This document shows positions 43,975-63,438 of a stretch of 64,000 nucleotides of DNA, piece by piece. Origin of the DNA: Bacteroidia bacterium (GTDB taxonomy: Bacteria > Bacteroidota > Bacteroidia > B-17B0 > Aurantibacillaceae); the NCBI GenBank assembly GCA_016787785.1, contig JAEUTO010000006.1, forward strand, positions 310,001-374,000, in the 5' to 3' direction. The notes below the pieces were generated by a model. The model did no database searches. It saw nothing but the letters and a program-made list of their open reading frames with translations, and was not told the DNA's origin. Every line of letters starts with the position of its first letter. Within the stretch, counting starts at the first letter, position 1. The translations under genes were made by a program, and so were the position numbers.

Positions 43975-44017
43975 TGTGCTTAAAGATAAATATATAGTTT
44001 GAAACTAAAGAGAGTTT

Positions 44018-44045
44018 TTAGTCGTTAGTCATTAGTCGTTAGTCG
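44018..44045. repeat. heptanucleotide tandem array (4 x TTAGTCR)
   Basis: Four exact-length units, TTAGTCG, TTAGTCA, TTAGTCG and TTAGTCG, lie between the HAD gene and tgt. On the other strand they read GACTAAY, which shares the GACTAAT unit of the array at 54525. See the finding on heptamer arrays. Confidence 0.85.
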
Positions 44046-44071
44046 TGATCCAGTATTCATAAGCTTTCCGA

Positions 44072-53271: not shown

Positions 53272-54516
53272 TTATTCTTCTATTTTGTATTCGTTTATTT
53301 TGCGGTAAAGCGTTCGTTCGCTTATGCCTAGTTCTTTTGCGGCGTATTTACGTTTACCCTTGTGTTTACGTAAAGCTTTTTTTATCATGTCAATTTCCTT
53401 ATCCTGTAACGATAAAGTTTCTTCTACTTCAATTACCTGACTGTTGGATCCATTATTTTGAAGGTTGTTAGGTGAGTGAAAACTCAACGCAGTATTATCG
53501 TTACTTAATTCAGTGCCATTATAAATTCTGTTTATGATCTGAACATCGTCTGTATTAATAGCATTTATTTTCCCCGTTGCAGCCGATACAAGATCGTATA
53601 CTACTTTTTTAAGGTCGTTCAATTCGGCACGCGTATCGCGTAAAACTTTAAAGATAATTTCTTTATCGGCACTCTCAAACGCTGAGCCTGATGCAAAATT
53701 ATCGTTCCTTAAAACAGTTGGCACATTATTTGAATTGTATTGCGGTAAATATTTTAAAAGTAATTCTGCATTTATTTCTCTGTTCTTTTCAATGATCGAA
53801 ATTTGTTCGGCAATATTTTTTAGCTGACGGATATTTCCCGGCCAAAAATAATTTATAAGAACCTGTTCTGCATCTGCTGTTAATTTAATAACCGGCATTC
53901 TGTATTTCGCCGCAAAATCATTTGTAAATTTTCTAAACAATAAATGTATATCATCTTTTCTTTCGCGTAACGGCGGAAGGTAGATGGGCACTGTATTTAA
54001 ACGATAGTATAGATCGGGACGAAATTTCTCTTTTTCTAAAGCCTGGTAAAAATTAATGTTTGTTGCTGCAACAACACGTACATCTGTTTTTAAAACCTTA
54101 CTGCTTCCAACTTTAATATATTCTCCGCTTTCTAATACGCGTAACAAACGTGCTTGCGTTGAAAGAGGTAACTCGCCAACTTCATCTAAAAAAATGGTAC
54201 CACCATTGGCAACTTCAAAATAACCTTTGCGCGCTTCTGTTGCGCCTGTAAATGCTCCTTTTTCGTGACCAAATAATTCGCTATCAATTGTGCCTTCAGG
54301 TATTGCGCCGCAGTTTACGGCAATGTACGGACCATGTTTTCTTGCGCTATTTTGATGAATGATCTGCGGAAAAACTTCTTTACCCGTTCCGCTCTCGCCA
54401 TTAATAACAACATTAAGATCGGTTGGTGCAACCTGACGAGCAATGTCCACAGCTCTTTCAAGCAAGGTATTATTTCCTATAATTCCGAATTTTTGTTTTA
54501 AGTCCTGTGTATTCAT
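53272..54516 (-). CDS. sigma-54-dependent transcriptional regulator without sensor domain
   Basis: 414 residues. AAA+ domain (about 15-240): Walker A GESGTGKE, the sigma-54 contact loop GAFTGATEARKG, Walker B GGTIFLDEVGEL, and the sensor regions. A linker (about 255-365) precedes a Fis-type helix-turn-helix at the end (DMIKKALRKHKGKRKYAAKELGISERTLYRKINEYKI). There is no receiver, GAF or PAS domain, so it would be controlled by amount or partners. In Bacteroidota this gene commonly sits between miaB and lptE. Here a four-helix-bundle element has come in between it and miaB. Confidence 0.95.
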   Translation of the reverse strand: MNTQDLKQKFGIIGNNTLLERAVDIARQVAPTDLNVVINGESGTGKEVFPQIIHQNSARKHGPYIAVNCGAIPEGTIDSELFGHEKGAFTGATEARKGYFEVANGGTIFLDEVGELPLSTQARLLRVLESGEYIKVGSSKVLKTDVRVVAATNINFYQALEKEKFRPDLYYRLNTVPIYLPPLRERKDDIHLLFRKFTNDFAAKYRMPVIKLTADAEQVLINYFWPGNIRQLKNIAEQISIIEKNREINAELLLKYLPQYNSNNVPTVLRNDNFASGSAFESADKEIIFKVLRDTRAELNDLKKVVYDLVSAATGKINAINTDDVQIINRIYNGTELSNDNTALSFHSPNNLQNNGSNSQVIEVEETLSLQDKEIDMIKKALRKHKGKRKYAAKELGISERTLYRKINEYKIEE

Positions 54517-54524
54517 AGGGTTGA

Positions 54525-54952
54525 CTAATGATTTATGATAAATGATTTATGACTTTTTTAGCAACTATTTTCTCACGAAAATTAAAGATCATATTTTTTA
54601 GTTCATTTATTTTCTCTGTTAATTCTATTCTTAATTCCTTTTTTCCAAAATCTCTTCTTTCACAAATTACAATATGTGTTTCTAATTCAAAACAAGAACC
54701 CAATGAAGCAGACAAATATTCAGCAAAATGGTTCGAAGTTCTTTTTCCGCATCCTTCAGCAATATTAGTTGGGATAGAGCAGGCGCAACGAGTAATTTGA
54801 GAAATAAGATTATATTTTTCTTCTTTTGGAAGATCCTTTACAAAATCATAGCAAACATCAACAAGATCGATCCCTTTTTGCCAAATTTTTAATTCTCTGA
54901 AATTATGACCCATAAACAATTCTATCTTAAATCATTCATCCTTTATCATTAA
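54525..54952. mobile_element. four-helix-bundle (23S IVS-type) element with inverted heptamer ends
   Basis: About 428 bp between miaB and the sigma-54 regulator gene. The ends 54525-54549 and 54928-54952 form 25-bp inverted repeats (20 of 25 positions match), both built of GATNNAT-like heptamers. The right end contains the miaB stop codon; the left end stops 8 nt short of the regulator gene start codon. Its only gene codes for a four-helix-bundle protein. No target duplication is seen, so the mechanism of insertion is open. Mobility is an inference from the structure. Confidence 0.6.
54533..54913 (-). CDS. four-helix-bundle protein (23S rRNA intervening-sequence family)
   Basis: 126 residues from the ATG at 54913 (MGHNFRELKIWQKG). 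The family motifs LKIWQKGIDLVDVCYDFVKDLP, IPTNIAEGCGKRTSNHFAEYLSASLGSCFELETHIVI are clear. Proteins of this family were first seen in intervening sequences of 23S rRNA genes and are also found alone beside repeats. The fold is a pentameric four-helix bundle; function unknown (RNA-binding suggested). Here it lies inside the inverted repeat element in the miaB operon; no rRNA gene is near. In-frame TTG starts upstream are less likely. Confidence 0.93.
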   Translation of the reverse strand: MGHNFRELKIWQKGIDLVDVCYDFVKDLPKEEKYNLISQITRCACSIPTNIAEGCGKRTSNHFAEYLSASLGSCFELETHIVICERRDFGKKELRIELTEKINELKNMIFNFREKIVAKKVINHLS

Positions 54953-56385
54953 TCCACTACAACGTGTCCAATCAAAGTCGATGCCGTACATGAAGTAACA
55001 AGCACATCAACATAGTCGCCCTTTTTATAATTTTCCTTAGGAAAAACACAAACTGTGTTCTGTGTATTTCTTCCCATGAACATTTCATCTGATTTTTTTG
55101 AAAAGCCTTCAATTAAAACCTTGTGAATTTTTCCAACACCGGCTTTTGTTTTAATAGCGCTGTTCTCGCGTTGCACGGCAACAATTTCGCTTTGTCTTCT
55201 GCTTTTTATTTCTTCAGGTACGTCATCTTTAAATTTTCGTTCAGCTAAAGTTTTTGGTCTTTCGCTATACATAAATAAAAATGCGTAATCGTATTGCACT
55301 TGCTTTAATAAGCTTAAAGTATCTGCGTGATCTTCTTCTGTTTCTCCACAAAAACCTGTAATAATATCTGTGCTAATGCCGCAACCGGGAAGAATTCTAT
55401 TGATCGCTTCAATTCTATTTAAATACCATTCGCGTGTATAGCCACGGTTCATGGCTTCTAAAATTCTGCTGTTACCACTTTGTACAGGTAAGTGAACGTA
55501 CTTGCAAATGTTCTCATACCTGGCCATTGTTTCCAACACTTCGTCCGACATATCTTTCGGATGTGAGGTTGAAAAACGGATGCGCAACTCCGGACTTACC
55601 AAAGCAACTTTTTCTAATAGCTGTGCAAAGTTTGTTGCTGATTTTTTCTGTTCCTCAGTAAGTGTTTCCTTTTTTAATCCGCCGCCACTGTATAAATAAC
55701 TGTCTACATTCTGTCCTAATAATGTTACTTCTCTATAACCTTTTTCAAAAAGATCTTTTGCTTCGGCAACAATACTTTCAGGGTCGCGACTTCTTTCTCG
55801 CCCTCTTGTAAAAGGCACAACGCAAAAACTGCACATGTTATCGCAACCGCGCATAATACTGATTAAAGCGGTTACACCATTTGTACCCAATCGCACGGGC
55901 GTTAGGTCAGCATAGGTTTCTTCTTTACTTAATATAACGTTTATGGCTTTGTGGCCATCTTCTGCTTCTTCAATTAAATTTGGCAGATCGCGGTAAGAAT
56001 CCGGTCCAACTACTATATCAACTAATTTTTCCTGTTCTAAAAATTGTGATTTTAAACGTTCGGCCATGCAACCTAACACGCCAACCAACGCTTTTGGATT
56101 TTTTTGTTTTACGCGTTTAAAGTCGTTTAAACGGTTACGCACCTTTTGTTCTGCATTCTCTCTGATAGCGCAGGTATTCACAAAAATAATATCCGCTTCT
56201 TCGTAGTTTTGGGTGGTTGTATAACCATCTTTCATTAAAATAGAAGCTACAATTTCGCTATCACTAAAATTCATAGCGCAGCCATAACTCTCTAAAAACA
56301 ACTTTTTGCCGTTTAAAACCTTCGATTCTACCATCAGGGGTTTTCCTTGAATGCTTTCGTCTATTATTTTTTCTTCCAGATTCAT
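54949..56385 (-). CDS. miaB: tRNA-2-methylthio-N6-dimethylallyladenosine synthase MiaB
   Basis: 478 residues. A radical-SAM methylthiotransferase that adds a methylthio group to i6A37 of tRNAs reading UNN codons. The N-terminal domain holds the three Cys for the auxiliary cluster ([35 protein letters not shown]). The radical-SAM motif is CDNMCSFC (C-x3-C-x2-C). A TRAM domain ends it ([19 protein letters not shown]). ATG start. First gene of the operon down to secG, although the four-helix element now follows it. Its stop codon lies within the element's right repeat. Confidence 0.96.
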
Positions 56386-61521: not shown

Positions 61522-62010
61522 ATGAAATTAAACGAAATTCAGGATTTAATAAAATTTGTTTCAAAAAGCGGGGTAAGCGAAGTTGAGCTGGAAACAAAAG
61601 AAATTAAAATTGTGATCAGGACTCCAAAAAGCAGTACACAGTTCATAACTCAGGCTGCGCCCGTTATTACAGCGCCTGTTATAACTACACCGGTTGCAAA
61701 TGTTACAAATACACCGGTAGTAAACGAAAATAAAACAACACCTCCGGTTACCAATAACGAAGAATCAAAATACGTTACTATTAAATCGCCCATGATCGGT
61801 ACTTTCTACCGTTCTGCCGGGCCAGACAAACCAGCTTTTGTTAATATTGGTGATGAGATCGCTCCGGGCAAACCCGTTTGCATTATTGAGGCCATGAAAC
61901 TTTTTAACGAAATTGAAAGTGATATTAAAGGTAAGATCGTTAAAGTATTAGTTAACGACTCTACACCTGTTGAATACGATCAACCATTATTTTTAGTAGA
62001 CCCGTCGTAA
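61522..62010 (+). CDS. accB: biotin carboxyl carrier protein of acetyl-CoA carboxylase
   Basis: 162 residues. N-terminal domain (about 1-40: MKLNEIQDLIKFVSKSGVSEVELE), then a Thr/Pro/Asn-rich swinging linker (about 40-80) and the biotinyl domain (about 82-162). Biotin is attached to Lys126 in IIEAMKLFNEIE, 36 residues before the end, the canonical place. It carries CO2 from AccC to the carboxyl transferase in the first step of fatty acid synthesis. accC follows after 84 nt filled with heptamer repeats, so the pair remains an operon. Confidence 0.96.
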   Translation: MKLNEIQDLIKFVSKSGVSEVELETKEIKIVIRTPKSSTQFITQAAPVITAPVITTPVANVTNTPVVNENKTTPPVTNNEESKYVTIKSPMIGTFYRSAGPDKPAFVNIGDEIAPGKPVCIIEAMKLFNEIESDIKGKIVKVLVNDSTPVEYDQPLFLVDPS

Positions 62011-62013
62011 TGT

Positions 62014-62044
62014 TAAATGCTAAATGTTGAATGATAAATGATTT
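62014..62044. repeat. heptanucleotide array between accB and accC
   Basis: Units of seven: GTTAAAT, GCTAAAT, GTTGAAT, GATAAAT, then GATTT. The string GATAAATGATTT is identical to part of the left end of the element at 54525. TTGAATG (62027) and CATTCAA (62045) also form a 7-bp hairpin around it. Confidence 0.75.
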
Positions 62045-62062
62045 CATTCAAATTGATTTAAC

Positions 62063-62090
62063 ATTTATAATTTATAATTTAAAATTTCGA
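62063..62090. repeat. second heptanucleotide array before accC
   Basis: Four units of seven in the form ATTTATA, ATTTATA, ATTTAAA and ATTTCGA end 4 nt before the accC start codon. Confidence 0.7.
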
Positions 62091-62094
62091 AACT

Positions 62095-63438
62095 GTGTTT
62101 AAAAAAATATTAATAGCCAATCGTGGTGAAATTGCCCTAAGGGTAATTCGCACTTGTCGCGAAATGGGCATAAAAACGGTTGCTGTTTATTCAACCGCCG
62201 ATAAAGATTCTTTGCACGTAAAGTTTGCCGATGAAGCTGTTTGTATTGGACCACCTCCAAGTAAAGACAGTTACCTGAACATGGCCAGCATTATTGCTGC
62301 AGCCGAAATTACTAATGCAGATGCTATTCACCCGGGTTATGGTTTCTTAAGCGAGAATGCAAGATTTTCTGAGATCTGTCGCCAAAATAAAATAAAATTT
62401 ATTGGTGCCAGTCCTGAGATGATCAATCAAATGGGCGATAAGAGTAATGCAAAAGCAACGATGATCGCTGCCGGCGTACCTTGTGTGCCGGGTTCTGTAG
62501 GTTTATTAGAGAGTGCCGATCAGGGAAAAGAATTGGCAAAAGGAATTGGGTATCCTGTTATTATTAAGGCAACTGCCGGTGGTGGTGGAAAAGGGATGCG
62601 TATTATCTGGAAGGAAGAAGATTTTCAAACTGCATGGGATAGTGCTACGCACGAGGCAACAGCTGCCTTTGGCAATGGGGCCATGTACATGGAAAAATAT
62701 ATAGAAGAACCACGTCATATTGAAATTCAAATTGTAGGAGATCAACATGGCAAGGCTTGCCATTTAAGTGAGCGTGATTGTTCTATTCAACGCCGTCACC
62801 AAAAGTTGGTTGAAGAAACACCGTCGCCATTTATGACACCTGAATTGCGCGAGGCTATGGGCGATGCAGCCGTTAAAGCTGCTTTATCCATCGCTTATGA
62901 AGGAGTAGGTACAGTAGAATTTTTGGTTGACAAACACCGCAATTTTTATTTTATGGAAATGAACACCCGTATTCAGGTGGAACATCCCATAACAGAAGAA
63001 GTTATTAATTACGATCTTATACGCGAACAAATTTTAGTTGCAGCAGGTGTTCCTATTTCAGGAAAAAATTATTATCCGGTGTTGCATGCTATTGAGTGCC
63101 GTATCAACGCAGAAAATCCTTTCATGAATTTCGTTCCGTCTCCGGGGGTTATTACAACTTTACATACACCGGGTGGACATGGTATTCGTGTTGACTCGCA
63201 TGTTTACAGTGGTTACAGGATTCCGCCAAATTACGATAGTATGGTTGGAAAATTAATTACTGTTGCGCAAACGCGTGAAGAAGCAATTGCAAAAATGCAC
63301 CGCGCTTTAAGCGAATACGTAATTGAGGGTGTAAAAACAACAATTCCGTTCCACATCAAATTAATGCAGAACGAGGATTTTAAAGCAGGTAATTATACTA
63401 CCAAATTTATGGAGACCTGGGATTTTAAGAACGCCTAG
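62095..63438 (+). CDS. accC: acetyl-CoA carboxylase, biotin carboxylase subunit
   Basis: 447 residues with a GTG start (the family start [16 protein letters not shown] follows at once). ATP-grasp enzyme that carboxylates biotin on AccB with bicarbonate and ATP. The glycine-rich ATP loop [13 protein letters not shown] (about 158-170), [12 protein letters not shown], the metal-binding [14 protein letters not shown] (about 288-301) and the C-terminal biotin carboxylase domain ([21 protein letters not shown]) are all present. Downstream, a small secreted protein gene begins 5 nt after the stop. Confidence 0.97.

Follow-up and report, generated by a model that had tools for sequence, protein, structure and literature searches.

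Heptameric repeats have been described in cyanobacteria since about 1990, and the STRR sequences of these bacteria are heptameric intergenic repeats. The REP/BIME sequences, which are associated with the RAYT transposases, are abundant intergenic hairpins as well, and a few versions of them bear a gene flanked by the same hairpins. Further heptameric intergenic repeats are GGGAATC of Xanthomonas, with related ones in Nostoc, and TAACTGA of Beggiatoaceae, Cyanobacteria and Bacteroidetes (PMC4692102, PMC4679880). The Xanthomonas heptamers often occur as inverted pairs, with 70 and 75 cases in two genomes (PMC4692102). A link to an S23p gene was not found in these two papers, where searches of both main texts for 'S23' and 'four helix' gave 0 hits. 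The S23p protein is known from insertions in 23S rRNA. The intervening sequence (IVS) in the 23S rRNA of Coxiella is 428 nt long and cut by RNase III, and its S23p ORF is preceded by heptameric repeats of GACAGAT; in the same account Leptospira and Brucella are named alongside Coxiella for 23S IVSs with an S23p ORF (PMC4990558). A homology between S23p and Avd has also been suggested (PMC10053308). Among the matches listed from the PMC literature, no paper tied S23p genes outside rRNA to heptamer arms; most subscription papers lie outside that scope. The element described here carries a member of the S23p family in a setting unlike the known 23S one, and it is one of a widely distributed set of insertions, which appear and disappear at recurring operon joints across many bacteria.

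In the window, i.e. the whole 64-kb stretch of DNA that was analysed, an S23p gene (PF05635/TIGR02436) is located between miaB and the gene of a sigma-54 regulator, with a heptamer array at each end and all the parts on the minus strand. The S23p (23S_rRNA_IVP) four-helix-bundle gene occupies positions 54533..54913 and encodes 126 aa from the ATG at 54913, which is a likelier start than the TTG at 54919 (128 aa). The 5' arm (54921..54955) consists of five NGATNNA heptamers, on the coding (minus) strand GGATTAA, TGATAAA, GGATGAA, TGATTTA and AGATAGA, and holds the last codon and the stop codon of miaB (54949..56385, an ORF with Radical_SAM, UPF0004 and TRAM matches). The 3' arm (54519..54553) is complementary to the 5' arm and is built of four RTCATNN heptamers and a degenerate fifth, on the coding strand GTCATAA, ATCATTT, ATCATAA, ATCATTA and GTCAACC. 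It overlaps the last S23p codons and ends 2 nt before the start of the regulator ORF (53272..54516, Sigma54_activat match). In the local alignment of the arms, 26 of 33 positions were paired with a score of 19, which was equalled in 0 of 2000 shuffles (shuffle mean 9.6, maximum 18). The inverted repeat at 54520-54552 and 54925-54957 was determined to be 33 nt long and 79% complementary, an overlapping 26-nt pair being 81% complementary, and the lag-7 matching at 54520-54557 was 20/28. Just two ORFs of at least 80 aa lie inside the element, that of S23p and, antisense to it, one of 83 aa. No transposase was found in the element, the S23p ORF matching PF05635 alone in its profile search. By eye, no target duplication was detected at the miaB, sdh, gyr and suf junctions, where none of the empty sites was base-exact. 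Rfam gave no family at the element, and its sole match in the window was a tRNA. Hence the element lies at an operon joint and not inside a 23S rRNA gene. The original prediction of a four-helix-bundle gene related to the 23S IVS proteins, inserted in the miaB - sigma-54 regulator operon, bounded by complementary heptamer-built ends and fitted exactly between the two genes, was right in all these respects. The observation is larger than first described, as the insert is one of a family of elements.

The S23p protein matched PF05635 with an E value of 2e-32 and 111.9 bits (cut-off 33.8) over model positions 1-105 of 106, and TIGR02436 'four helix bundle protein' with an E value of 6e-30 and 103.7 bits (cut-off 24). 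The match with the crystal structure PDB 2gsc had an E value of 1e-15. Gln39, Glu53 and Glu76 were invariant in 20 diverse members. The protein is under purifying selection, because the dN between the S23p genes of relatives G020 and G025 is 0.053 at a dS of 1.24.

The element resembles the Coxiella IVS by having the same protein family, one ORF inside complementary arms and a similar size (428 nt in comparison with a median of 476 nt between the outer arm ends of the elements collected here). However, the host sequence is an operon joint instead of helix 45 of 23S rRNA, and the RNA stem is predicted only. Tandem seven-nucleotide units, a mostly intergenic location and frequent inverted pairs are shared with the heptameric intergenic repeats. 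Abundant intergenic hairpins with a few gene-bearing versions recall REP/BIME-RAYT, whereas the arrays here are variable heptamers instead of a fixed palindrome and the element has no Y1 transposase. With Avd of the diversity-generating retroelements the protein shares a related four-helix bundle (weak PHROG match, E 4.5e-5). In contrast to these retroelements, the own genome (G000, 100% complete) contains no PF00078 reverse transcriptase. Retro-insertion by a resident reverse transcriptase was considered and is not a general requirement, since PF00078 is absent from G000, G048 and G056; G048 and G056 had 9 and 8 S23p matches among those listed. PF00078 was found in 18 of 60 relatives, including the S23p-richest G045 and G043 (12 and 10 matches among those listed), and a reverse transcriptase could have a role where it is present.

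The own genome has two PF05635 genes, and a match was detected in at least 52 of 60 relatives, with at least 12 in the richest genome. A first set of 141 loci was composed of 31 loci from the own genome and the PF05635 matches in relatives, 30 miaB-joint loci and 80 stretches. The stretches were the best PF05635 matches among those listed, down to about E 7e-23; weaker ones were mostly left out, as were some contig-edge loci and one with an internal stop. This set resulted in 122 unique elements with flanks of at least 160 nt (32 from the own-genome and relatives' PF05635 loci, 9 from miaB-joint loci and 81 from the stretches). With a criterion of at least 19/28 matches, lag-7 matching was determined in 48 upstream and 30 downstream flanks of the 122, compared with 19 of 1118 control pieces from the same loci, and all other lags from 3 to 12 gave at most 6 flanks each. 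The arms of 65/122 elements were complementary beyond the 99th percentile of different-joint arm pairs (2/306 for control genes), and the true partner arm ranked first among the 122 in 61 cases. The heptamer theme was diverse across the elements (GTGATTA, GTATTAG, AGTTGGC, CAAGAAT and others). As the theme varies while the two arms of one element are matched, the complementarity is kept and the sequence is not. Among the 122, 37 elements failed both the lag-7 and the strict arm test, and a lag-7 array in a flank was also found with 26/306 control genes.

A second set of named genomes comprised 80 of 582 relatives, of which 77 elements had usable flanks, and contained no S23p protein at least 90% identical to any of the first set. 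This set is biased to relatives of the miaB clade, S23p having no conserved stretch for a wide profile scan. Lag 7 was detected in 35/77 upstream and 32/77 downstream flanks in comparison with 33/1805 controls; 27/77 arm pairs exceeded the 99th percentile and the true partner ranked first in 32/77. By record title, the hosts included Bacteroidota, Cyanobacteria, Planctomycetota, Chloroflexi, Gemmatimonadetes, Ignavibacteriae, Clostridia and a Rickettsiales MAG. The arm test was passed by 2/3 cyanobacterial and 7/9 other non-Bacteroidota copies displayed. Between elements of different joints, protein similarity was weakly correlated with heptamer theme (r 0.17, as high in 0/500 permutations), which indicates that the arms and the gene tend to travel together.

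Both neighbours were co-directional with the gene in 107 of the 118 elements having two neighbours of at least 90 aa, compared with 139/296 genes in a sample of the own genome. In the second set, 65/77 elements were placed between two co-directional genes. In the 65 strong-armed elements of the first set, the 5' arm started close to where the upstream stop codon ends, at a median of 2 nt before that point (52/65 within 15 nt), and the 3' arm ended at a median of 6 nt before the downstream start (43/58 between -5 and +20). The same joints recurred: miaB-regulator 14 times, sufB-sufC 9, a gyrB-type topoisomerase gene 8, pdh E1-E2 8, sdhA-sdhB 6 and fadA 5, where the gene names except miaB and the regulator were read from the translated proteins. 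In the named genomes, occupied joints were miaB-regulator in two Mucilaginibacter, fadB-fadA in Flavobacterium fluvii, pheS-pheT in a Rickettsiales MAG and sdhA-sdhB in a Chloroflexi MAG. In Flavobacterium columnare, a four helix bundle gene has been placed between the guanylate kinase and nicotinate-nucleotide adenylyltransferase genes in a region described as 'phage' (PMC5524665).

Carriage of the element by phages was rejected, as tblastn gave 0 matches in 50,697 phage records. Plasmid matches were found in 17 of 72,556 records, and the 16 with a genus name belonged to cyanobacteria and one Gemmatirosa. Five cyanobacterial plasmid copies were compared. Two of them (L255, L256) had clear inverted heptamer arms, L252 and L253 had long repeat arrays with weaker arm matches (scores 17 and 12), and L254 had a short 5' array with the second arm absent. 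L252 and L253 come from plasmids of two cyanobacteria; in each of them the S23p gene is flanked by cas6 and cas4, and in L252 cas1d follows at some distance.

The empty-site comparison proposed with the original prediction gave a positive result at the miaB joint of relatives. Matches were obtained in 39 genomes, of which 30 genomes of the genus, the own included, were compared. The S23p gene was present in 12/30 and absent from 18/30. By eye, the latter consisted of a plain spacer shorter than 60 nt (7/30), a solo 3'-arm relic (4/30, with L058 weak and L047 lying beside two other ORFs), a gene-less heptamer hairpin (1/30), a hairpin of apparent period 9 (3/30) and other sequence (3/30). The relics of G034 and G006 keep the last S23p codons, and a similar relic is seen at the gyrB joint of G018 (both by eye). 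At the sdh, gyr and suf joints 30 loci each were compared, of 38 to 40 genomes with a match. The gene was found in 6/30 at sdhAB, with gene-less hairpins in three and the upstream gene not found in 1/30; in 9/30 at gyrB, with the upstream gene not found in 5/30; and in 4/30 at sufBC, where sufB was not found directly upstream in 16/30.

Two other kinds of sequence were seen at the miaB joint. L035, L039 and L046, from G011, G061 and G001, contain a hairpin family of apparent period 9 (CACTAATTT/CACGAATTA), the C/G polarity of which is opposite by eye. In L047, from G002, two small ORFs occupy the place of the S23p element beside a leftover 3' arm, and one of them is PIN-domain-like by eye.

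On balance, we consider it rather probable, if only somewhat better than even, that the insert is a small mobile and probably selfish element of the S23p type, living in operon joints instead of 23S rRNA. In its anatomy, a single S23p gene is enclosed by two mirrored heptamer arrays, and the whole fills the gap from stop to start. It would have no promoter of its own and would be expressed within the operon message. The S23p ring may bind the arms, either as DNA or as an RNA stem, and the insertion could be carried out by host enzymes or, between relatives, by ordinary homologous recombination. The arms would be kept matched mainly by copying or slippage at the DNA level and not by selection on RNA pairing, and gene-less heptamer hairpins would be remnants or non-autonomous relatives. 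Among the points against this reading are the lack of a mobility enzyme and of a visible target duplication, the 37 of 122 elements that failed both tests, and the heptamer arrays, which are far commoner than the S23p gene.

The lack of an enzyme is instead expected of a passive passenger without mobility of its own. After DNA uptake, homologous recombination in the conserved genes on either side would carry it between species, each time to the same joint, and the heptamer arrays would act as hot spots for crossovers and slippage. We regard this alternative as rather unlikely, although several results agree with it and weigh against the mobile element. The nearest neighbour of an S23p was at the same joint in 59/72 cases; the S23p clades are thus largely joint-specific and jumps to new joints are rare. 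The identity of S23p correlated with that of the flanks (r 0.58 over 251 same-joint pairs), which indicates a largely vertical inheritance. In G025 and G034, the similarity at the gyrB joint has a sharp upstream border and extends on the other side about 500 nt into gyrB, a stretch that was apparently co-converted with the element, as plain recombination would give; the identity at third positions of gyrB was 0.64-0.82 in the first six windows and then about 0.5.

The miaB joint speaks against the passenger. The own regulator and that of G020 share 98% protein identity (dN 0.012), whereas their S23p proteins share 50% (dN 0.43) and their heptamers are not the same. Of 15 windows of 120 nt in the own flanks, 14 had G018 or G020 as the closest match and one had G034, so that only the element, foreign to both G018 and G020, appears to have been exchanged. 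Between G020 and G018 the dS of S23p was 0.057 and that of the adjoining regulator 0.43. Along their alignment, the identity was about 91% on either side of the element and rose to 95-100% across the S23p gene and the 3' arm. The high identity covers the inner 5' arm, the gene and the 3' arm and stops short of both flanking genes; the outer 5' arm, with an identity of 0.88, was no more alike than the flanks and had a 23-nt indel, which counts against the mobile reading. In five same-joint pairs (L033/L034, L173/L188, L097/L098, L018/L065 and L174/L188, one locus being counted twice) the elements exceeded the flanks in identity by 7.7 to 13.3 points, and in other same-joint pairs (sdhAB, miaB, sufE) they fell 26 to 31 points short of them.

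Two further results weigh against passive carriage to one joint. Within one gene cluster of G027 (L122), two consecutive joints each hold an S23p copy; the copies belong to one lineage (81% protein identity) and their flanks are unrelated, so that the element appears to have jumped once from one joint to the other in this genome. Hosts as distant as Mucilaginibacter, with 64-66% identity to the own protein in MiaB and 61% in the regulator, also carry an element at the miaB joint. In the midpoint-rooted tree of the miaB-joint proteins, the two Mucilaginibacter and G054, which is labelled as another family, grouped with one subtype of the genus (support 92). The other subtype was separate (support 96), and the own protein lay outside both, in a clade of 19 with a support of 74. 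Exchange of the element between species at the same joint, without or with little flanking DNA, is therefore well supported, and homologous recombination may account for much of it.

The original prediction had further proposed that the ends serve RNA-level processing of the operon message. In such an RNA-level intervening sequence the arms would form a long mRNA stem, and a cut by RNase III would separate the S23p message from those of miaB and the regulator, as the RNase III-cut Coxiella element with heptameric repeats in its 5' region might suggest (PMC4990558). The predicted minimum-energy fold of the mRNA does pair the two arms, and the arms have a polarity on the coding strand which suits this reading, the 5' arm having more G than C in 60 and more C than G in 3 of the 65 strong-armed elements (23 vs 4 of 27 in the second set). 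However, the whole fold was no better than shuffles (z -0.72, 25/100 shuffles as good). Selection on an RNA stem should also leave an excess of G·U over A·C among the arm mismatches on the mRNA strand, and none was found: 82 G·U vs 115 A·C in the first set, 34 vs 37 in the second and 116 vs 152 pooled. The lean to A·C in the first set had a p value of 0.02 with mismatches pooled and disappeared when each element was counted once (22 vs 27 elements, p 0.57). The idea that selection acts on RNA pairing was accordingly rejected, and the matching is more likely to arise at the DNA level. Thus the proposed purpose of the arms was not borne out, and the RNA-level reading is unlikely. An ordinary host gene, i.e. 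a conserved operon member tuning the expression or assembly of its neighbours' products, would suit the purifying selection and the location of joints in clusters that encode enzyme complexes (suf, sdh, pdh), but it is highly improbable given the 18 genomes without S23p at the miaB joint, the replacement by a 50% identical protein between close species and the unrelated joints across hosts. The idea that arms of period seven act as an all-frame stop/start signal was dropped, since themes such as CAAGAAG contain no stop codon.

To return to the reading as a mobile element, its putative gene-less relatives are abundant. With a threshold of 20/28, a search of 464 kb of G000 that included the window detected 16 lag-7 arrays, and one simulated sequence gave 0. 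All 16 were intergenic and 13 were between co-directional genes; one was the miaB-joint element and 15 lay away from the two S23p genes of the genome. Lags of 6, 12, 14 and 15 gave 11, 7, 12 and 11 arrays in the same 464 kb, lag 14 being twice seven and the multiples of three being taken as coding repeats. By extrapolation, a genome would contain about 160 heptamer arrays vs two S23p genes. A second arm was sought for 12 arrays, and its score was at least 15 in 7 and at most 10 in 5. A gene-less heptamer hairpin (62005..62097, plus strand) was found between what read as accB and accC, with lag-7 arrays at 62008-62043 and 62053-62092, an arm score of 20 and a theme close to that of the miaB element. 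A solo array of the 3'-arm type with GTTAGTC units (44008..44059, minus strand) lies between two co-directional genes; its partner arm was not found and it is read as a relic.

Two old puzzles, the purpose of the S23p protein and the origin of the heptameric intergenic repeats, may be one, and the link between S23p and heptamers is a testable handle on both. It would also explain 'four helix bundle protein' genes inside unrelated operons, e.g. between cas6 and cas4, where a functional partnership with the adjacent genes can wrongly be assumed. The '23S rRNA IVP' in a figure legend of a CRISPR survey could be explained by an insertion between cas genes (PMC10910872). A broader proposal is possible and so far doubtful: a class of mobile elements across phyla, requiring only the 120-residue S23p and self-made heptamer arms, would home to the joints of polycistronic messages, and its gene-less derivatives would be the heptameric intergenic repeats of cyanobacteria, Xanthomonas and others. 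The seven-nucleotide step, the arm matching and the coding-strand polarity would then be traces of an undescribed reaction of insertion or end copying. As regards the length of the repeat unit, some arms of L030 and L022 look made of 8-nt instead of 7-nt units (GGGCAAAT).
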